Virus record (IMG/VR): IMGVR_UViG_3300009408_000102
Coordinates: 1 to 27,234 of that record
Reading direction: 5' to 3' (one strand)
Length of the DNA: 27,234 nucleotides
From: a virus
Shown here: piece by piece, positions 2,776 to 26,563 of the stretch
Layout: the number at the start of each line of letters is the position of its first letter
Numbering within the stretch: the first letter of the stretch is position 1
Notes under the pieces: generated by a model
Seen by the model: the letters and a program-made list of their open reading frames with translations, nothing else
Database searches by the model: none
What the model was told of the DNA's origin: nothing
Program-made: the position numbers and the translations under genes

Positions 2776-3212
2776 AATTATTAGAAGAAATGCAGATGGT
2801 TGAGGAGATGGAGAAGTCTCTTTCTGCTGGAAATCGAGATAAACGAACGTCTAATAAATCAGGTAATCGATTGAAGAAATCAATCATTCGTGGAGGAAAG
2901 AAATTACAGGATGAAATGCGGGCAAAAGAAAACGCTGAGATCAAATCAAAAGTGTTCGCAGCTCTTAAAAATTCACATGTAGGGGTTGGCCCAGAAGGAA
3001 AGATTAGTGGTTCATTTGTTGGAAATCATCAAGATGATACAGAATATAAAATTACAATATATGAAGATGATTTTCATGTTAATATAAAGTTAATTCCTCA
3101 TGGAAAGATTGTTTTACATAAAAAATATATAATCCCTGCTTTTGAAAAACAAGGATTTATTAACGTGATGGTAGGTCCGCAATTCTCATATGAAATAGAT
3201 GCAGAATATTAA
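2772..3212 (+). CDS. Small protein between protease and scaffold, candidate head protein
   Basis: 146 residues overlapping the protease stop by ATGA. The N-terminal half is highly charged and helical (MKLLEEMQMVEEMEKSL, then a lysine and arginine rich stretch), the C-terminal half from about residue 85 looks like a compact beta domain (YKITIYEDDFHVNIKLIP). I do not recognise the family. The LLE near the start fits a gp21-type cleavage site, which together with position suggests a core or internal head protein. T4 has no gene at exactly this place. Confidence 0.7.
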   Translation: MKLLEEMQMVEEMEKSLSAGNRDKRTSNKSGNRLKKSIIRGGKKLQDEMRAKENAEIKSKVFAALKNSHVGVGPEGKISGSFVGNHQDDTEYKITIYEDDFHVNIKLIPHGKIVLHKKYIIPAFEKQGFINVMVGPQFSYEIDAEY

Positions 3213-3237: not shown

Positions 3238-3245
3238 TATAAATA
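3238..3245 (+). promoter_or_regulatory. T4-type late promoter
   Basis: TATAAATA followed by CAAGTAACAGGAG, almost the same downstream sequence as the promoter at 1574. It drives the scaffold and capsid genes, giving them an extra strong late start inside the head operon. Confidence 0.85.
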
Positions 3246-5557: not shown

Positions 5558-5568
5558 ATACAAATCTG

Positions 5569-5600
5569 AAAAGGCCGCTAGAAATAGCGGCCTTTTCTTT
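5569..5600. terminator. Two-way rho-independent terminator
   Basis: A 12-bp perfect stem (AAAAGGCCGCTA with TAGCGGCCTTTT) and a GAAA tetraloop, ended by T-rich sequence on the plus strand and, because the stem begins with AAAA, by T-rich sequence on the minus strand too. It lies between the capsid gene and the convergent minus-strand gene at 5637 and should stop transcription from both. Confidence 0.95.
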
Positions 5601-5636: not shown

Positions 5637-5828
5637 TCACCAAAACAATCCCAATATAGCACCAATAGGAAATACAAATACTCCCACAACACGCATTGCC
5701 ATCAATCCTGTTAATGGGTCAAAGCCTACATGAATAATATCTAAAATATTCATAATCCATCCGGGAATAGAAATGACAGCAACAATTAAATAAAATACAA
5801 ATATCCTTCGAGCAATTTTATAATTCAT
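5637..5828 (-). CDS. Small two-helix membrane protein, early gene
   Basis: 63 residues with two predicted membrane segments (about 8-31 and 42-61, the latter MAMRVVGVFVFPIGAILG). It has its own sigma70-type promoter, a strong AAGGAG and the two-way terminator just behind its stop, so it is a complete single-gene early unit lying in reverse between late genes. I cannot name the family. Small early inner-membrane proteins in T4 relatives often alter superinfection or host envelope functions, but nothing in the sequence settles this. Confidence 0.8.
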   Translation of the reverse strand: MNYKIARRIFVFYLIVAVISIPGWIMNILDIIHVGFDPLTGLMAMRVVGVFVFPIGAILGLFW

Positions 5829-5851
5829 TTTTCTCTCCTTTATTGGCTAAA

Positions 5852-5879
5852 AGTATAATGAATTGAAATAAAAAGTCAA
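5852..5879 (-). promoter_or_regulatory. Early sigma70-type promoter, minus strand
   Basis: On the minus strand TTGACT (5874-5879), a 16-base spacer and TATACT (5852-5857), 24 bases before the start codon of the membrane-protein gene. It has the same TTGACTTTTTA core as the other early promoters of the window. Confidence 0.85.
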
Positions 5880-5890
5880 GAATTATTTTA

Positions 5891-5898
5891 TATAAATA
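5891..5898 (+). promoter_or_regulatory. T4-type late promoter, divergent from the early promoter
   Basis: TATAAATACAA on the plus strand, separated by 11 bases from the minus-strand early -35 box. It reads into the gene at 5972 and the neck operon. Confidence 0.8.
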
Positions 5899-5971
5899 CA
5901 ATAGAAGGCAATCAATAAGATTGTCTGCTCTTTCATAAGAAAGGGACAATTCAAAAATAACAGGAGTTGTT
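5899..5971 (+). promoter_or_regulatory. Structured leader before the gene at 5972
   Basis: Unlike the other late leaders of about 20 bases, this one is about 70 bases long. It can fold: CAATC/GATTG at 5909-5923 or, alternatively, GATTGTC (5919) with GACAATT (5947) enclosing CTTTC/GAAAG. The two foldings are mutually exclusive because they share GATTG. The Shine-Dalgarno CAGGAG follows. It may be a translational control element; this is inference. Confidence 0.35.
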
Positions 5972-6178
5972 ATGAAATATAAATACAAAGCATTAGTAAA
6001 GAAAGTCACATTGTTACCAGTCGGTGGAGTGACATTAATTCCAGGTGTTGAATTTGAAACAAATACCGATCTTAGTGGATATGTTAAAGTTGGATATGTT
6101 AAGGATTTAACACCAGCAAAAGTTGTCGAACCTGTTGTTGAACACAAAGGACCTGGTCGTCCAAAGAAAAGTTCATAA
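5972..6178 (+). CDS. Small basic protein with GRPKK tail
   Basis: 68 residues: a beta-rich body with glycines (LLPVGGVTLIPGVEFETN) and a C-terminal tail GPGRPKKSS that resembles an AT-hook-like DNA-binding tail. It starts with a good AGGAG and ends 4 bases before the neck gene. Proteins of this type are common between capsid and neck genes in tailed phages; the role is not known to me. Late expression and position suggest a virion or head-completion function. Confidence 0.7.
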   Translation: MKYKYKALVKKVTLLPVGGVTLIPGVEFETNTDLSGYVKVGYVKDLTPAKVVEPVVEHKGPGRPKKSS

Positions 6179-6182
6179 TTAA

Positions 6183-6899
6183 ATGGCTTTTCCAGCATCA
6201 ACAACAAGAACTAACCTAATTGGGTATGTTCGCCGAAATCTTGGCGAACCTACCCTGAAGGTTGAGTTAGATGATTCTCAAATCAATGATGCCATTGATG
6301 ATGCTATGATATTATACCAGGAATGGTCGGGTGATGGTACGCATTTTGGAATTTATGTTTTTGATGGGGTAAAAAATACATCTCAGTATGCTCTACCTTC
6401 TAATATTCAAGAAGTTACGAAAGCCGCTACAGTTTCATTTTCCCGCGCATTGACAACTAATATTATTGATCCATATTTAAATATTTTTGGTCCTGCAAAT
6501 GAGGGATATTCACTCGTTGAAATTGGAACGGAATATTTAAGTGATGTACAGAGAATGTTTGAAACAATACGGGCTTTTTCTACATGGAGAGATGTCACTG
6601 GAATTTTACAGATTGAATTTACTCCACCTCCTCGTGTAACAGAAAAGATTGGATTGGAAGTCAGACAATATATTGATGAAAATCAGTTATTGTCTACAAT
6701 CTGGATTCGGCAATATGTTCTTGCACGCAGCAAATTAATATTAGGGGAAACAAGAGAAAAATATGCTCAATTAGCAGGTCCAAATGGCCCGCAATTGAAT
6801 GGTGCTGCATTGAAATCTGAAGCTCAGATAGAAATCGATAAATTGAAAGATAATTTGATGACACAACACATGCGCCCTATAGCATTTATTGTTGGTTAA
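6183..6899 (+). CDS. 13: Neck protein, gp13-like
   Basis: 238 residues (T4 gp13 is 309). The N-terminal pattern VRRNLGEPTLKVELDDSQINDAIDDAMILYQEWSGDG is cut short here, but RRNLG, LDDSQINDAIDDA and LYQEWSGDGT are the hallmark of the T4 gp13 / myovirus neck family. The C-terminal half has the IWIRQYVLARSKLILGETR helix typical of this fold. It binds the portal side of the completed head and prepares it for tail joining. The next gene of the T4 neck pair, gp14, comes only after 2.2 kb of accessory genes. Confidence 0.88.
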   Translation: MAFPASTTRTNLIGYVRRNLGEPTLKVELDDSQINDAIDDAMILYQEWSGDGTHFGIYVFDGVKNTSQYALPSNIQEVTKAATVSFSRALTTNIIDPYLNIFGPANEGYSLVEIGTEYLSDVQRMFETIRAFSTWRDVTGILQIEFTPPPRVTEKIGLEVRQYIDENQLLSTIWIRQYVLARSKLILGETREKYAQLAGPNGPQLNGAALKSEAQIEIDKLKDNLMTQHMRPIAFIVG

Positions 6900-6900
6900 T

Positions 6901-7281
6901 ATGAAACCAGTTGAAATTCCAGAAGACATTGCATTGTTGGCAGTAAAACAGTATGGATATGCAATCGAATACATCAAAAATCCATCCGAGGCAGTCCAGT
7001 TAGCAGCAGTGAATAAATGGGGAAATGTAATCCGGTACATCGTTAATCCATCTGAGGTAGTCCAGTTAGCAGCAGTAAAACAGTATGGATATGCAATCAA
7101 TTACATCAAAAATCCATCCGTGGCAGTCCAGTTAGCAGTAGTGAAACGGAATAAATATGCAATCGATTACATCAAAGATCCATCCGAAGCAGTCCAGTTA
7201 GCAGCAGTGAAACGGAATGGACTTGCAATCGAATACATAAAGAACCCATCTGAAAAAGTGAAGAGAGCGGCTGGAAGATGA
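6901..7281 (+). CDS. Alpha-solenoid repeat protein (DUF4116-like), copy A
   Basis: 126 residues: a 26-residue leader (MKPVEIPEDIALLAVKQ...), four 22-residue repeats of the form NPSEAVQLAAVKxxGxAIxYIK, and a basic cap ending VKRAAGR. The repeat resembles DUF4116 / HEAT-like two-helix units found in bacteria and large phages. The start at 6901 is chosen because the paralogues at 9792, 15843 and 16438 also begin MKPVE or MKLVE; an ATG at 6889 would add three residues. It begins one base after the neck gene stop, so it is read as a passenger of the neck operon. Function unknown; solenoids usually bind proteins. Confidence 0.85.
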   Translation: MKPVEIPEDIALLAVKQYGYAIEYIKNPSEAVQLAAVNKWGNVIRYIVNPSEVVQLAAVKQYGYAINYIKNPSVAVQLAVVKRNKYAIDYIKDPSEAVQLAAVKRNGLAIEYIKNPSEKVKRAAGR

Positions 7282-7325: not shown

Positions 7326-8099
7326 ATGAAATTTAAAGATTGTTATCAATTACTAGAAAAATATCTATTCGAGGGATACAAGGAAGCTATTACCGATTTC
7401 TCAACTGATGCAGAGATTCAGGATGTAAGGAAAACTGTAGAGATTTATAAAGATCTTGTAAAACGAAATCAGGTAAAAGGGCAAGAACGTAATATTGATT
7501 ATTGGAGAAAACAAGGCTGGAATAAGTTTGATGCTTTTGTAAAAGATTTAAAAGATCAACCATCCAAAACAAAAATCAAGAGAAAAATGGTTGCCGGTAA
7601 AGCAATTAACTTGAGGGAAGATGATAGATGGTTGATTGTGATACCTCTTGATAAACATGCTTCTTGTTTTCATGGACGTAAAACAGATTGGTGTACAGCA
7701 AAACCGAATCAATCCTATTTTGAGCAATATTTTTATGATAAAGAAGTTACTTTAATTTATTGTCTTGAAAAAGAAACTGGTAAATTGTGGGCTATTGCAG
7801 CACATAAAGATATAGATAAGATTGAAATGTTTACACAAAATGATTCTTCAATTACTAAAAATCAATTTAAATCTCAAACAGGACTGGATGCACAAAAAAT
7901 TGTTGATTTGGCATTCAAAAATGAAGAAGTGGATAAATCAGTCAAAGAAACTCGCAGTAAATGGAAAGAAGCAGTTGCTTCTATTAAACAGATGATTTCT
8001 GATAAATCTGAGGATTATAAGACATTTGAACAATTACTTCGATATACAAAAGATGGAAAATCCGCGGTTGCTTATGTGAAATACCGAGCTAATGCATAA
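7326..8099 (+). CDS. Phage protein with TDWCTA-type domain and a capsid-targeting-like leader
   Basis: 257 residues. The leader MKFKDCYQLLEKYLFEG resembles T4 capsid-targeting sequences (MKTYQEFI...E), with a fitting gp21 site LFE before Gly17. The core has DRWLIVIPLDKHASCFHG and RKTDWCTA (about 100-122), then LIYCLEKETGKLWAIA; this set of motifs recurs in uncharacterised proteins of many large phages. The C-terminus is helical and lysine-rich. It has its own late promoter. A packaged head protein is the favoured reading, but neither packaging nor an activity is shown by the sequence. Confidence 0.8.
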   Translation: MKFKDCYQLLEKYLFEGYKEAITDFSTDAEIQDVRKTVEIYKDLVKRNQVKGQERNIDYWRKQGWNKFDAFVKDLKDQPSKTKIKRKMVAGKAINLREDDRWLIVIPLDKHASCFHGRKTDWCTAKPNQSYFEQYFYDKEVTLIYCLEKETGKLWAIAAHKDIDKIEMFTQNDSSITKNQFKSQTGLDAQKIVDLAFKNEEVDKSVKETRSKWKEAVASIKQMISDKSEDYKTFEQLLRYTKDGKSAVAYVKYRANA

Positions 8100-8568
8100 G
8101 GTTGAGATTCCAGAAGATATTGCATTGTTGGCAGTAAAACAGTATGGATATGCAATCGATTACATCAAAGATCCCTCCGAGGCAGTCCAGTTAGCAGCAG
8201 TGAAGGGGCAGGAAGATGCAATCTATTACATCAAGAATCCATCCGAGGCAGTCCAGCTAGCAGTAGTGAAGCAGGATGGATCGGCAATTTCCTACATCAT
8301 AAAGAAACTTGGTCATGATCCATCCGAGGCAGTCCAGTTAGCAGCAGTGAAGCAGTATGGACTTGCAATCGATTACATCAAAGATCCATCTGAAGCAGTC
8401 CAGTTAGTAGCAGTGAAGCAGTATGTACTTGCAATCGATTACATCATCAAGAATCTTGGTCATGATCCATCTGAGGTAGTCCAGTTAGCAGCAGTGAAGC
8501 AGTATGGACTTGCAATCGAATACATAAAGAACCCATCGGAAGCAGTGAAGAGGGCGGCTAAAAGATGA
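8092..8568 (+). CDS. Alpha-solenoid repeat protein (DUF4116-like), copy B
   Basis: 158 residues: leader MHKVEIPEDIALLAVKQ, then units of 22, 27, 22, 27 and 22 residues, then the basic cap NPSEAVKRAAKR. The 27-residue units carry the extra linker IIKKLGH or IIKNLGH before the next DPSE. The start overlaps the previous stop by 8 bases and the stop overlaps the next start (ATGA), so it is embedded in a coupled chain. At the DNA level the framework is nearly identical to the other copies, which implies recent duplication or gene conversion. Confidence 0.85.
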   Translation: MHKVEIPEDIALLAVKQYGYAIDYIKDPSEAVQLAAVKGQEDAIYYIKNPSEAVQLAVVKQDGSAISYIIKKLGHDPSEAVQLAAVKQYGLAIDYIKDPSEAVQLVAVKQYVLAIDYIIKNLGHDPSEVVQLAAVKQYGLAIEYIKNPSEAVKRAAKR

Positions 8569-9149
8569 ACTTTAAAGAATATCTCATAGAAAGCAGAAGA
8601 GATATTATACTAGTTGATTTTCAACCGGCATATAGTACTTCTTATGGATATAAAGATGCCTTCACTTCTGCTATAAATGAATTGAATAAGAATAATTTTG
8701 GGAAAGCATTAATATTTTTCAATGGGGAGGATCTTGGCTTAGATTCAAAACAAGATGTTATTAATCATTATGTTGAATATGGATTGAATGAAGATATAGT
8801 TCATAGATTATCATTTCGTGACAAAGGATATGGTTTTTTGAGAGACTGGATGGATACTAAGGTTGATGAATCTATTATAATTAAAACTATTCGATATTTG
8901 CTCTTGAATAAATTATCAGATGCTAGAGATATTACAGATAAAAAGTTCATAAATTATTTAGTTAATAATGATATTAATGTAGAAGATCTTCTCCTTTATT
9001 TACCAGACGTATCAATATCAGAATTAAAATCATTGTCAGGGGCAAGAATTGGTGGAGGATCTAAATGTGCATGTTTGAGGGAAATTGAATTGCTTATGAA
9101 TGCTTTAAATATTCGTTATAAAGAAGTTAGGGATTGGATTTACGAATGA
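8565..9149 (+). CDS. Hydrolase-like phage protein with a capsid-targeting-like leader
   Basis: 194 residues. The leader MNFKEYLIES fits the T4 capsid-targeting pattern with gp21 cleavage LIE before Ser10. The body opens RRDIILVDFQPAYS, resembling the first strand and catalytic Asp (here Asp18) of isochorismatase-like cysteine hydrolases, and ends GGGSKCACLREIELLMNALN, a Cys-containing motif seen in related phage proteins. The hydrolase assignment is tentative because the middle is not diagnostic. Late, coupled on both sides by ATGA overlaps to the repeat protein and to gp14. Confidence 0.75.
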   Translation: MNFKEYLIESRRDIILVDFQPAYSTSYGYKDAFTSAINELNKNNFGKALIFFNGEDLGLDSKQDVINHYVEYGLNEDIVHRLSFRDKGYGFLRDWMDTKVDESIIIKTIRYLLLNKLSDARDITDKKFINYLVNNDINVEDLLLYLPDVSISELKSLSGARIGGGSKCACLREIELLMNALNIRYKEVRDWIYE

Positions 9150-9790
9150 CTCTACTCAGAACTTACGATCCAAGTAATCAAGCTGATGTAAGTTATATTC
9201 ACGGTGTCATTGAAGAATTCATTCAAATTTCCGGATTTCAAATTACCGTGCACATGCTATCAAATCGAACTGTCGATAACTCAATAGGCGGCAATACTCC
9301 AGATGAATATTCTGTTGGGGCTCCCACAGAAGATCCAAATCAAGCAGATCCAATTTTTGCCGAGATGAGAAAACGAAATTATTTAGCTGCTAGGACAATT
9401 TGGTGTTTACCTGATGCTCTGGAACGAAATAATTTTCTTGAAAAATTTGGATTAGTTAGTCAAGATACAATGAATCTCCATTTTCCTTTATTTGCTATGG
9501 AAAGAGATTTATCTAGAAAATTAGCACCAGGTGATTTGATTCAATTGCCTTCTTCAATTGAGAGTAGATTTTATGAAGTGACGGATGTTGCTAGAAGTGA
9601 TTATGAATTATATGCTAGTTATCTTTGGAAAGTTGAATGTAAACCCGCAATGACTTCTCAGGATGTTGCACCTATTCCTGTTGCAGATTTGTCTTATGGT
9701 TCAGAAATTTTGTCTAATACCCAGGTTGAAGATGATTCTACTGTAATTGCTCCAAATTCAGGAATTGACTACCTGGATCAAGTGAACTGA
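9146..9790 (+). CDS. 14: Neck protein, gp14-like
   Basis: 214 residues (T4 gp14 is 256). Similar layout to T4 gp14: an N-terminal segment about a ligand-like VIEEFIQISGFQITVHMLSN, then NNFLEKFGLVSQDTMNL (compare FFSKFGMQVQDEVTL in T4), then LAPGDLIQLPSSIESRFYEV (compare EGDLIYFPMDNSLFEI). With gp13 it completes the neck and the tail-joining surface. The start at 9146 overlaps the upstream stop (ATGA); an upstream ATG at 9134 in frame is less likely. Good family match plus a neighbouring gp15. Confidence 0.85.
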   Translation: MTLLRTYDPSNQADVSYIHGVIEEFIQISGFQITVHMLSNRTVDNSIGGNTPDEYSVGAPTEDPNQADPIFAEMRKRNYLAARTIWCLPDALERNNFLEKFGLVSQDTMNLHFPLFAMERDLSRKLAPGDLIQLPSSIESRFYEVTDVARSDYELYASYLWKVECKPAMTSQDVAPIPVADLSYGSEILSNTQVEDDSTVIAPNSGIDYLDQVN

Positions 9791-10740: not shown

Positions 10741-11547
10741 ATGGCAATTCAAGCAGTAATTGATACGACAAGAACCAGATTTTTCACAGATATAACATCA
10801 GAATTTGATGCTACGGGAAGTACAACTGATGATCCAAATGGAATCACAGATTATTCATGGGATTTTGGAGATGGGTCAACACAATCGGGAACGGATAAAT
10901 ATGGCTGGCATAAATATGCTGCAATAAGCCCATTACTTACTGTAATTTTAACAGTAACAAATTCCTTAAATGAACAATCAATAACAAATTTTAATATTTC
11001 AGTAGAATCATCTGTGATTGATACAGGAAAGCAAATAAGACGATATATCACTCAATTTTTAGATGTGTTTAATGGTCTGATAATTAAGAATAAAGATGAT
11101 GTGGATATAACAGTTCCAATTGTTTGGGGTAATCCAGATCGAGTAGTCGCCTTCATTCGCGGAGAAGTTTCTCCAGGAGAACAAAAACGAGCAATTTCTT
11201 TACCTATTCTTTCTGGTCGTCTTGCTGGATTGACTCCTGATTATAATCGTTCAAAATATAATTATCAACACCGTTTTGCTATTGATCCAAATTTAAACCA
11301 GCATCAAACAATTTATACTCCTACTCCTGTATCTTTAGAATTGGAACTTGGGATATGGGCATATGATTATGGGCAGGCGTTCACGCTTTTAGAAACGATA
11401 GTACCATGGTTCAACAGCGCACTTGTAATCAATATTGGCGATAAAGATTATACATCAATGAACAATCTTGAATTGGAAAGTGTGAGTGATGAGAACACCA
11501 TTGATATAGGTACGGATCAACGTCTTGTTAGATATGATTTGAAATAG
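10741..11547 (+). CDS. 15: Tail sheath terminator, gp15-like, with N-terminal PKD domain
   Basis: 268 residues. Residues 1-90 are a PKD (Ig-like) domain: FDATGSTTDDPNGI, then DYSWDFGDGSTQSG and LTVILTVTNSLNE. Residues 100-268 match T4 gp15: RRYITQFLDVFNGLIIKN, ITVPIVWGNPDRV, LPILSGRLAGL, then TPTPVSLELELGIWAYDY and TIVPWFNSALVINI. gp15 forms a hexameric cap on the finished tail and joins it to the neck. T4 gp15 begins directly with the second part, so the PKD domain is an addition at the N-terminus. Start 3 bases after the preceding stop. Confidence 0.87.
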   Translation: MAIQAVIDTTRTRFFTDITSEFDATGSTTDDPNGITDYSWDFGDGSTQSGTDKYGWHKYAAISPLLTVILTVTNSLNEQSITNFNISVESSVIDTGKQIRRYITQFLDVFNGLIIKNKDDVDITVPIVWGNPDRVVAFIRGEVSPGEQKRAISLPILSGRLAGLTPDYNRSKYNYQHRFAIDPNLNQHQTIYTPTPVSLELELGIWAYDYGQAFTLLETIVPWFNSALVINIGDKDYTSMNNLELESVSDENTIDIGTDQRLVRYDLK

Positions 11548-13867: not shown

Positions 13868-14206
13868 ATGGCAGGTTATAGTACAGGATTTGGCGCAAGC
13901 CCAGTAAGTTTAAATGTAGGTGCTGTGAAGGTAGAACCTAAACATCATAATAGATTTAAAGTATCGTTTTCAGGCGGTTTACTTGATGGAAATGTAACGG
14001 CGAACGTTGTTAATGTCTCACGACCAAATGAAACATTTGATGAAATTCAAGTTCATCGTGGTGAAAGTATAACATATTTTGCTGGTAAACCCCATTTTGA
14101 TGATGTTACCATTCAATTTGATGATAGTTTAGATAATTCATTAGCAGATGCCTTATATGCTCAAAGATCCACACAATTTGATACATCAACATTAGCAGTT
14201 CTGTAA
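13868..14206 (+). CDS. 19: Tail tube protein, gp19-like, apparently C-terminally truncated
   Basis: 112 residues against about 163 in T4. HHNRFKVSFSGG, VVNVSRPNETFDEIQVHRGE, TYFAGKPHFDDVTIQFDD and the helix SLADALYAQRSTQFD are the N-terminal part of the tube fold, in the usual place after the sheath. The frame stops after DTSTLAVL, where the family normally continues with the second beta sheet. Just past the stop, the -1 frame reads VTLRYDLPVRT and then stops, which looks like the last strand of a tube protein. So the gene may have lost an internal segment with a frame change, or this is a reduced variant. AGGAG precedes the start. Confidence 0.75.
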   Translation: MAGYSTGFGASPVSLNVGAVKVEPKHHNRFKVSFSGGLLDGNVTANVVNVSRPNETFDEIQVHRGESITYFAGKPHFDDVTIQFDDSLDNSLADALYAQRSTQFDTSTLAVL

Positions 14207-15633: not shown

Positions 15634-15846
15634 ATGAAAATAAAAGATACAAGATATGCATTACTAGATGCAAATATGGATGTAACAGTAATTGCAAAGG
15701 ATAGGGATACCGGAAAGGAAAAAGAAATGAAAGTTGAAGATATTTATCATGATCTAGCTTCAGATACTGGGCCAATTAAAATTACTGAATTATTGTATGG
15801 TTATAAAATTCGTTCATCTAAATATGAATACCATTTAAAGAAATGA
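15634..15846 (+). CDS. Small protein of unknown function before the repeat genes
   Basis: 70 residues, mixed alpha-beta and charged: MKIKDTRYALLDANMDVTVI and a C-terminal DLASDTGPIKITELLYGYKI. Good AGGAG. Stop overlaps the start of the repeat gene (ATGA). The last 95 bases of the gene and the junction are copied at 16363-16451, so it is the donor of a tandem duplication. I do not recognise the family. Confidence 0.7.
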   Translation: MKIKDTRYALLDANMDVTVIAKDRDTGKEKEMKVEDIYHDLASDTGPIKITELLYGYKIRSSKYEYHLKK

Positions 15847-16349
15847 AACTAGTTGAGATCCCAGAAGACATAGCTTTGTTGGCAGTGAAACAGGATGGTC
15901 GGGCAATCCAATACATCGATAATCCATCGGAAGCAGTCCAGTTAGCAGCAGTGAAGCAGTATGGACTTGCAATCGAATTCATCATAAAGAAACTTGGTCA
16001 TGATCCATCTGAGGTAGTCCAGTTAGCAGCAGTGAAGGAGCATGGATATGCAATCCGGTACATCATCAAGAATCTTGGTCATGATCCATCCGAGGCAGTC
16101 CAGTTAGCAGCAGTGAAGCAGAATGGATGGGCAATCCGGTACATCATAAAGAAACTTGGTCATGATCCATCCGAAGCAGTCCAGTTAGCAGCAGTGAAGC
16201 AGAATGGATATGCAATCGAATTCATCATAAAGAAACTTGGTCATGATCCATCTGAAGCAGTCCAGTTAGCAGCAGTGAAGGAGCATGGATATGCAATCCG
16301 GCACATAAAGAACCCATCGGAAGCAGTGAAGAGAACGGCAAGAAGATGA
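15843..16349 (+). CDS. Alpha-solenoid repeat protein (DUF4116-like), copy C
   Basis: 168 residues: leader MKLVEIPEDIALLAVKQDG, then four 27-residue units with IIKKLGH or IIKNLGH linkers, one 22-residue unit and the cap NPSEAVKRTARR. It is the copy with the highest share of long units. Overlaps the previous and the next open frame by ATGA. The invariant DNA of the framework (for example the GCAGTCCAGTTAGCAGCAGT stretch) recurs in each unit, while the residues after AVK and around GxAI vary. Confidence 0.87.
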   Translation: MKLVEIPEDIALLAVKQDGRAIQYIDNPSEAVQLAAVKQYGLAIEFIIKKLGHDPSEVVQLAAVKEHGYAIRYIIKNLGHDPSEAVQLAAVKQNGWAIRYIIKKLGHDPSEAVQLAAVKQNGYAIEFIIKKLGHDPSEAVQLAAVKEHGYAIRHIKNPSEAVKRTARR

Positions 16350-16441
16350 ATCTAACAAAACGAGATACTGGGCCAATTAAAATTACTGAATTATTGTATG
16401 GTTATAAAATTCATTCATATGAATACCATTTAAAGAAATGA
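16346..16441 (+). pseudogene. Duplicated 3' fragment of the 15634 gene, still an open 31-codon frame
   Basis: MNLTKR followed by DTGPIKITELLYGYKI and HSYEYHLKK, a copy of the end of the protein at 15634 with a two-codon deletion. It keeps the ATGA overlaps on both sides, so it can still pass ribosomes from repeat copy C to copy D. Probably a duplication scar rather than a functional protein. Confidence 0.75.
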
Positions 16442-16935
16442 AACCAGTTGAACATGATCCATCCGAAGAAGTCCAGTTAGCAGCAGTGAAACGGAATGGA
16501 TGGGCAATCCGGTACATCATCAAGAATCTTGGTCATGATCCATCTGAGGCAGTCCAGTTAGCAGCAGTGAAGCAGGATGGAGAGGCAATCGATTACATAA
16601 AGAACCCATCGGAGGCAGTTCAGTTAGCAGCAGTGAAACGGAATGGACTCTCAATTTCCTACATCATAAAGAAACTTGGTCATGATCCATCCGAGGCAGT
16701 CCAGTTAGCAGCAGTGAATCAGGATGGATATGCAATCAAATACATCAAAGATCCATCCGAAGCAGTCCAGTTAGCAGCAGTGAATCAGGATGGATATGCG
16801 ATCGAATTCATCATAAAGAATCTTGGACATGATCCATCCGAAGCAGTCCAGCTAGCAGCAGTGAATCAAGATGGAGAGGCAATTGGAGATATTATGAAGC
16901 CATCCGAGGCAGTGAAGAGAGCGGCGAGAAGATAA
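16438..16935 (+). CDS. Alpha-solenoid repeat protein (DUF4116-like), copy D, leader deleted
   Basis: 165 residues: only MKPVEH remains of the leader, fused directly to DPSEEVQLAAVKRNG. Units of 27, 22, 27, 22, 27 and 22 residues follow, then the cap KPSEAVKRAARR. Here several units have AVNQDG in place of AVKQ. The direct join of leader start to a repeat at HDPSE indicates an in-frame recombination between repeats. Ends 7 bases before the early promoter of the next block. Function unknown. Confidence 0.85.
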   Translation: MKPVEHDPSEEVQLAAVKRNGWAIRYIIKNLGHDPSEAVQLAAVKQDGEAIDYIKNPSEAVQLAAVKRNGLSISYIIKKLGHDPSEAVQLAAVNQDGYAIKYIKDPSEAVQLAAVNQDGYAIEFIIKNLGHDPSEAVQLAAVNQDGEAIGDIMKPSEAVKRAARR

Positions 16936-18662: not shown

Positions 18663-18841
18663 TTATATGGCCTGAATTTAAATTTCCTCCAATAAATCTA
18701 TGGGTATTATCCACTTTATCTTTTAATAATGTGCAAGAGAAAGAATCTGAGAAATTAAGCACTAAGACAACAGATGATAAACAATTAATAATCAAATCAA
18801 TTTTAAGAAATCGAAATTCATCATATAATAATTTCTCTTGA
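18656..18841 (+). CDS. Possible small protein with FPPINLWVL motif
   Basis: 61 residues starting inside the end of the HD-Pnk gene. WPEFKFPPINLWVLSTL resembles short phage proteins that begin with a PPxNL motif, and the rest is a charged helix. There is no good ribosome site, so it would depend on coupling. The 3' end runs into the next early promoter (the stop lies within TTGACT). Moderate support only. Confidence 0.45.
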   Translation: MVIIWPEFKFPPINLWVLSTLSFNNVQEKESEKLSTKTTDDKQLIIKSILRNRNSSYNNFS

Positions 18842-25232: not shown

Positions 25233-25534
25233 AAATGATTCCTGTTATTGTATAATTTCAATCTTCGCTCTGCGCGCATAGATTGTTCTATTTCTTTTCT
25301 ATTTTTATCTTCTTTTTGTAAATCAACTTGACATAGCGCCATTATACCATCGTGGTAGTATAATTTATGTATGAGATGTGAGCACCAAATCGTATAATGA
25401 TAAAAAGGATGCTTATATGGTTTGTAGAATGGACAAGACTTTTTGCAATAAGCTATTTGTTCAGGATCGTCATCCGGTAATCTATTATCCCATTCCCATT
25501 CTGCATTTTTATGATCGAATTTTATTGCATCCAC
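25229..25534 (-). CDS. Cysteine-containing protein inside the lysis-like group
   Basis: 101 residues from a GTG start at 25534 that overlaps the preceding stop by 13 bases; there is no earlier ATG. Cys30, Cys34, Cys51 and Cys68 with several His (CKKSCPFYKPYKHPFYHY) could bind a metal. The C-terminus is highly charged. I do not recognise it. Position between an i-spanin-like and a lipobox gene suggests a late function. Confidence 0.6.
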   Translation of the reverse strand: MDAIKFDHKNAEWEWDNRLPDDDPEQIAYCKKSCPFYKPYKHPFYHYTIWCSHLIHKLYYHDGIMALCQVDLQKEDKNRKEIEQSMRAERRLKLYNNRNHL

Positions 25535-25902
25535 TCTCTATTCATTCTTGCTACTGATTTATTGATTGTCTTTAATACTAATTCTGAATGGGCTGAATTG
25601 CGAAGCTTCAGTAGATTATGTTTTGCCATCTTGGACTGCATAGTCTGCAGTTTCTGATTCAGTTTCGTGTTATCGGTTGCCATGTCTGATAATGCGCTGA
25701 CATATTCATCAACCTTTTTGCTGACCTTGGCAATATGACTTTTAAGTGCAACAGATTCACTTTTCAATACTTCCACTTTAGCTGATAAAGTATTTATTTT
25801 CGCTTGAGCATCGGCTGCTTTTGCTTTATAATAAAATAAACCAGATACAAGCCCTAGCATAATAATTGCTATTCCTGCCGCAGCAATTAATTTTGCTTGC
25901 AT
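25522..25902 (-). CDS. Inner-membrane spanin subunit, Rz-like candidate
   Basis: 126 residues: one N-terminal membrane helix (LIAAAGIAIIMLGLVSGLFY, about 5-24), a long periplasmic coiled coil (about 30-93), and an end HSELVLKTINKSVARMNREW that has the shape of i-spanin C-termini. This is the topology of lambda Rz, which with an outer-membrane lipoprotein fuses the two membranes at lysis. Start overlaps the upstream stop (TAATG). Family inferred from topology. Confidence 0.72.
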   Translation of the reverse strand: MQAKLIAAAGIAIIMLGLVSGLFYYKAKAADAQAKINTLSAKVEVLKSESVALKSHIAKVSKKVDEYVSALSDMATDNTKLNQKLQTMQSKMAKHNLLKLRNSAHSELVLKTINKSVARMNREWMQ

Positions 25903-26270
25903 TATTGAATGTCCATTTCTACATTGACTGGAATATAGTTACCGACAGAATGATTACGAGTTCCATTTGTATTCAATAATCTGTTCCATTTCAACATTCT
26001 TACAATTCCTGCCGCATTTCGAGCTCCAATAGCCATTGCCATTCCAATCAATATTGGGTCTCCGATAGCTATAATGAAATCTTCTGATGTATAATGAAGT
26101 AAACCTTGCTCCATTTTTCCCACAGCATCAGTTGTGTCTAAAAGAGTATTATAACGTGAAGAAAAAATAGGCTCTTGTAATTTACCGAATTTCGCAGCAT
26201 CCGTTATATCAAGCGGAACGCCTTTACGGGATGGATGTTGTATCACATATATATCAGGTATTTTAGTCAT
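25902..26270 (-). CDS. Conserved phage protein with GDPILIGMAMAIGARN motif
   Basis: 122 residues from ATG 26270, which has AAGGA 9 bases before it; the ATG at 26279 would add three residues but has its AAAGG directly against the codon. YVIQHPSRKGVPLDITDAAKFG, then DFIIAIGDPILIGMAMAIGA and GIVRMLKWNRLL. I believe I have seen the GDPxxIGMAxAI...RMLKW pattern in other large phages, without a known function. First gene of the minus-strand late group. Confidence 0.7.
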   Translation of the reverse strand: MTKIPDIYVIQHPSRKGVPLDITDAAKFGKLQEPIFSSRYNTLLDTTDAVGKMEQGLLHYTSEDFIIAIGDPILIGMAMAIGARNAAGIVRMLKWNRLLNTNGTRNHSVGNYIPVNVEMDIQ

Positions 26271-26311
26271 TTCTTTCATCCTTTCATTTTTGAATTTATT
26301 TCCTATATTTG

Positions 26312-26319
26312 TATTTATA
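26312..26319 (-). promoter_or_regulatory. T4-type late promoter, minus strand
   Basis: TATAAATACAAAT on the minus strand, 41 bases before the start codon at 26270. It drives the four minus-strand genes and identifies them as late, in agreement with a lysis role. It lies 11 bases from a divergent early promoter. Confidence 0.85.
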
Positions 26320-26330
26320 AAAAATAAATC

Positions 26331-26358
26331 TTGACTTTTTATTTTACTTCTATATACT
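26331..26358 (+). promoter_or_regulatory. Early sigma70-type promoter
   Basis: TTGACT (26331-26336), 16-base spacer, TATACT (26353-26358), then GCAGGAG before the start at 26387. Divergent from the late promoter at 26312. Confidence 0.87.
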
Positions 26359-26386
26359 AATGATATCTTAAATTGCAGGAGATAAG

Positions 26387-26563
26387 ATGGGTGATTTTGT
26401 TAAAATGTTTCTTGGTTTAATACTTCTTATTTTCGGTATTCCATTATTACTAGGATCTGTGTATATTTTTGTAATGATTTTTTCAATATTGCTTGTTAAT
26501 ATTGGAGGAATATGGTTATTTATCTTTGGCTCAATAGCATTAGTTGCTTTTCTTTTAAGATAA
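26387..26563 (+). CDS. Small membrane protein, early
   Basis: 58 residues, almost entirely hydrophobic: two segments (about 7-36 and 36-57, with IGGIWLFIFGSIALVAFLL). Strong AGGAG after the early promoter. Overlaps the next start (TAATG). Not recognised. Confidence 0.75.
   Translation: MGDFVKMFLGLILLIFGIPLLLGSVYIFVMIFSILLVNIGGIWLFIFGSIALVAFLLR

Follow-up and report, generated by a model that had tools for sequence, protein, structure and literature searches.

Based on the anatomy of two sites in an uncultured T4-like phage, the membership of both halves of each site in promoter sets of its phage group and an equivalent layout in other T4-like phages, we propose that these sites are compact divergent promoter regions composed of ordinary early and late promoters, a reading that we regard as very probable. 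At each site an early promoter on one strand and a late promoter on the other stand back to back, separated by 11 bases. Both promoters are presumably used in the infected cell, where the two transcription complexes would be unable to share the DNA simultaneously.

Source sequence and related contigs

The window analysed here is the whole IMG/VR virus record of 27,234 bases, a piece of a T4-like phage genome that is AT-rich (34% G+C) and encodes a partial portal protein, the head protease, scaffold, major capsid protein gp23, sheath, tail tube and rIIA. The best-ranked cultured relative of its gp23 is that of Stenotrophomonas phage CM1/RAS14, at ~33% identity; no match of the window to phage records was found at the DNA level, and a search of bacterial genomes for gp23 homologues gave no match. 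Two short contigs from one other sample, L003 and L129, represent near-identical strains of the same phage, L129 being the sole match in a search for sheath homologues. A related replication-gene contig, G001 (L131, 43.6 kb), has promoters in common with the window, while none of the window genes could be aligned to it in the 14.8 kb compared. Among its genes are those for a gp55-like late sigma factor (phrog_234, E 4e-25) and a gp47-like subunit of a nuclease; the window, being a fragment, contains no gp55, gp33 or gp45 gene. The gp55-like gene (L132 1916-2308, contig G001) adjoins the gp47-like gene and encodes only 130 aa, compared with a family profile of 181 positions.

Several differences between the strains were observed. 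L003 lacks ~150 bases at 2971-3117, with a 99.9% match on either side, and L129 differs from the window in length within genes at 9134-9790 (218 vs 204 aa), 10741-11547 (268 vs 299 aa) and 13868-14206 (where the tail-tube reading frame is shortened); either genuine indels or faults of assembly may underlie these differences. Amid the structural genes lie four paralogous repeat proteins (6889-7281, 8092-8568, 15843-16349 and 16438-16935) with the DUF4116-like repeat unit AAVKQxGxAIxYIKDPSEAVQL, and L129 breaks off inside these repeat genes.

Two divergent promoter pairs at the sole divergent junctions

At the first site (5852-5898), the late box TATAAATA, extended as TATAAATACAA, occupies 5891-5898 on the plus strand and would serve the genes from 5972 on, with a predicted start at ~5904. 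The early promoter, TTGACT-16-TATACT, lies on the minus strand at 5852-5879 (-35 hexamer TTGACT at 5879-5874, a spacer of 16, -10 hexamer TATACT at 5857-5852) and belongs to a 63-aa gene read from 5828 to 5637, for which a start at ~5845 is predicted. The 11 bases in between (5880-5890) are A/T-rich and form the common edge of both promoters. At the second site (26312-26358) the arrangement is inverted: the late box TATAAATA, again extended as TATAAATACAA, occupies 26319-26312 on the minus strand and would serve the genes at 26279-24702 (predicted start ~26306), followed by an A/T-rich spacer of 11 bases (26320-26330) and, on the plus strand, an early promoter TTGACT-16-TATACT at 26331-26358 (TTGACT at 26331-26336, a spacer of 16, TATACT at 26353-26358) for a 58-aa gene at 26387-26563, with a start expected at ~26365. 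The 47-base blocks, TATTTATA-11-TTGACT-16-TATACT, are identical at 41 of 47 positions, with 9 of 11 in the spacer and 24 of 28 in the early half. The first-pass annotation had described the arrangement correctly: sequence, coordinates and spacing of both pairs, as well as the inversion of the second and the spacer agreement, are confirmed.

Both pairs were also rightly placed at changes of gene direction, and these are the sole two divergent junctions in the window, with 107-143 bp of intergenic DNA. Junction 1 (5829-5971) separates the 63-aa gene on the minus strand from the late cluster on the plus strand, and junction 2 (26280-26386) separates a minus-strand unit with a spanin candidate from the 58-aa gene on the plus strand. 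At either junction late genes lie in the direction of the late box, and the early promoter points toward a small gene of early type. The 63-aa product (5637-5828, minus strand; phrog_6006) is a membrane-type protein encoded antisense within the late cluster, directly after gp23, and the 58-aa product is likewise of membrane type; both genes are presumably expressed early. The first gene behind the late box of site 1 encodes 68 aa (5972-6178, plus strand), for which a family search returned nothing. At site 2, the first gene behind the late box encodes a 125-aa protein (25902-26279, minus strand; phrog_5888, Pfam Pam3_gp32), for which no homologues were found in viral contigs, and the second an Rz-like spanin candidate (25522-25902, minus strand; phrog_739, E 2e-6), lysis being a late function.

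Between gp23 and the antisense gene, a perfect, GC-rich 13-bp hairpin bordered by A/T on either side (5568-5597; -23.2 kcal/mol, z -8.0) is the strongest terminator candidate in the window and a candidate for termination in both directions; no terminator-like site was found near 26331. Folding of the predicted late 5' leader of site 1 (5904-5975, plus strand) gives a series of three hairpins (-20.7 kcal/mol, z -4.2), the pairing of the third spanning the 68-aa gene's ribosome-binding region; the late leader of site 2 (26306-26280) is unstructured. No Rfam match was obtained.

The search proposed in the first-pass annotation, for AGTCAA, 11 bases and the late box, recovered the pattern (box-11-TTGACT on the other strand) in the record only at these two sites, and a longer, 33-base pattern searched in all of IMG/VR was present only in the near-identical strain contig L003. 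The window holds 12 late boxes against 4.6 expected, and of 500 block shuffles of the window, 6 contained a single early/late divergent pair and not one contained two. Base composition therefore does not account for the pairs. Spacer agreement of 9/11 occurs for 0.2% of random intergenic 11-mers, rising to ~3% if both must end in TC, an ending frequent among the early promoters of this phage group.

Both halves belong to promoter families of the phage group

The late halves conform to a T4-type late promoter, with the exact box, the extension used across the window and late genes behind. The common form in the window, TATAAATACAA(G/A)TAA, is present at 805, 1574, 3238, 7286, 12067 and 15607, the last differing in that its first base is A; the solo boxes at 3238 and 12067 precede the scaffold and sheath genes, respectively. 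The TATAAATACAA extension also recurs in G001. Two solo late boxes, 12067 and G001:24917, are preceded by the same A/T-rich AATTATTTT as the box at 5891. In T4, the DNA upstream of late promoters is not conserved (PMC7892883).

The early halves likewise show the features of sigma70-type early promoters, with hexamers 16 bases apart in both copies (16-18 being typical), an A/T-rich upstream region and, presumably, early genes downstream. The corresponding form, (T)CTTGACTTTTTAWTT...TATAMT, occurs in solo copies at 18838, 21264 and at least 6 places in G001, none of them against a late box. One solo promoter, G001:11594, shares 25 of 28 bases with copy 1, another, G001:14120, shares 24 of 28 with copy 2, and the 11 bases upstream of a third, G001:32993, match both spacers at 9/11 without a late box. 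The existence of these solo promoters, and of the spacer match where no late box is present, indicates that the likeness of the two sites is that of two promoter families rather than that of a copied cassette.

Equivalent junctions in other T4-like phages

Comparison pairs were sought in complete T4-like genomes, where we looked for early and late promoters standing back to back within ~30 bp and facing opposite genes, as they do at both sites here. Such pairs are present in T4 at rnh|34 (gap 4; TTTACT-17-TATAAT, with a perfect -10) and segD|24 (gap 6), in RB69 at ORF189c|24 (gap 7) and rnh|34 (gap 16), in Acinetobacter phage 133 at Acj133p160|gene 9 (gap 7) and, in weaker form, in KVP40 at 0339|25 (gap 8). 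The -10 hexamers match at 5-6 of 6 positions in T4 and phage 133, but at only 4 of 6 in RB69, including the weak -10 of ORF189c|24, and in KVP40.

The closest parallels to site 1 are T4 segD|24 and RB69 ORF189c|24, in which one or more antisense genes directly follow gene 23 and an early promoter together with TATAAATA stands before the next late gene. They differ in gap length (6 and 7 vs 11) and in a -35 of the TTTAC type, as in T4 early promoters generally; moreover, segD of T4 is a homing endonuclease, whereas its counterpart here is the 63-aa membrane-type protein. A bioinformatic search for a segD-specific promoter in T4 found none (PMC2988022); we note TTTACA-17-TATTAT directly upstream of segD and back to back with the gene 24 late box (NC_000866, 107215-107330). 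At T4 rnh|34, too, an early gene and a late gene are separated by a strong early promoter standing back to back with a late box, though at gap 4 rather than 11 (16 at the equivalent RB69 junction). In phage 133, two late baseplate genes flank a small antisense ORF that has a divergent early/late pair, though with gap 7 and other genes.

The layout is hence precedented, variable in spacing and ordinary for T4-like phages. It is not general around gp23, since 80 distant gp23 neighbourhoods (700 kb) yielded 1 divergent pair, compared with 0-3 in shuffles. In a scan of IMG/VR for AGTCAA-N{0,30}-TATAAATACAA, the matches listed had spacings across 0-30 with no peak at 11, but their contexts resembled chance matches and so carry no information on spacing. 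Recurrent pairs at irregular distances, the observation that the first-pass annotation had named as refuting its own interpretation, are what T4-like genomes contain, with gaps of 4, 6, 7, 7, 8 and 16.

Discussion

The two sites could in principle be fortuitous, an early promoter's A/T-rich, UP-like upstream element happening to read TATTTATA and the late box being non-functional. The AT-richness of the window and of regions upstream of early promoters is compatible with this, but both boxes carry the same TATAAATACAA extension as the window's other late promoters and face late-type genes, and two pairs never arose on shuffling; of all readings we consider this one the least probable. The first-pass annotation had instead suggested a movable cassette; movement or duplication of one promoter unit into both junctions would be in keeping with the 41 of 47 identical bases, equal spacing, inverted orientation and location of both copies at divergent junctions. 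In either case the likeness should reach past the functional motifs and cover a clearly delimited unit. However, identity drops to 24/60 and 21/60 (35-40%) immediately outside the 47 bases, no terminal repeats were found, and the exact element was not found in other viral contigs apart from L003. In addition, each half also occurs alone, solo early promoters of G001 match each copy no less closely than one copy matches the other, the spacer identity recurs upstream of one of them, and spacings vary elsewhere. We therefore reject the cassette, chiefly on flank identity and the solo promoters of G001, and rate it only slightly above coincidence.

PeSL elements, mobile regulatory cassettes of T4-type phages, were reportedly described by Arbiol in 2010 and Comeau in 2014. 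By the account in PMC4503421, they resemble our sites in that small early genes, each under an early promoter of its own, stand among other genes, and site 1 does have a terminator hairpin in its vicinity. They differ from our sites, where no hairpin adjoins either early promoter and none is near site 2. The hallmark of PeSL, a stem-loop terminator directly linked to an early promoter, is absent here, as the hairpin at 5568-5597 lies beyond the gene, ~255 nt away from its promoter.

T4 late promoters have no -35 element, their box being positioned at -13 to -6, and a sigma70 open complex covers about -55 to +20. With predicted early and late starts ~59 bp apart, the footprints of the two polymerases likely overlap: a sigma70 open complex would extend over the late box, and the early -35 would lie under the late complex. 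The gp45 sliding clamp at the upstream end of the T4 late complex extends its footprint by 13 bp (PMC2988020). Mutual exclusion at any one moment is thus plausible, and the first-pass annotation had taken it further, to a strand switch in which one occupied promoter blocks the other and the 11-base gap is tuned for a sharp early-to-late change. The gap is indeed the same at both sites, which on a uniform 0-30 range would be a coincidence of ~1 in 30. Nevertheless, the gaps in T4, RB69, phage 133 and KVP40 vary, and the window's promoter types also occur alone. T4 early promoters are shut off genome-wide within minutes of infection (PMC2988021) and T4 late promoters, whose activation is likewise genome-wide, require gp55, gp33 and gp45 (PMC2988020), making a local switch unnecessary. 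The proposal is consequently unsupported, and we deem it unlikely, although less so than the other alternatives. A more specific version appears more doubtful still, ranking between the switch and the cassette. In it, the fixed gap of 11 bases, one helical turn, would be under selection in this phage group because it lets the clamp-bound late polymerase directly evict sigma70 polymerase from the neighbouring early promoter, or keep it away, so that the antisense early gene falls silent while late genes are transcribed.

According to the divergent promoter reading that we favor, host sigma70 polymerase would transcribe the small gene from the early promoter at once. Later, a gp55-type late sigma, together with gp33 and the sliding clamp, would fire TATAAATA on the other strand, toward structural or lysis genes. 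At site 1 the early transcript would end at the hairpin at 5568-5597, where gp23 transcripts would end from the opposite side; the gene following gp23 thus comes with a promoter of its own and a shared terminator, the equipment required of an early gene inside a late cluster. Gap length would be determined by packing two promoters into the short intergenic DNA.

In conclusion, an uncultured T4-like phage, distant from cultured ones, retains separate early and late promoter classes, and antisense early genes inside its late clusters are served by a compact back-to-back pair, as in T4, RB69 and phage 133. The position of the pair at site 1, after gene 23, equals that in T4 and RB69. The extended consensus sequences of the early (TCTTGACTTTTTAWTT) and late (TATAAATACAAGTAA) promoters are usable to bin fragments of this phage group.
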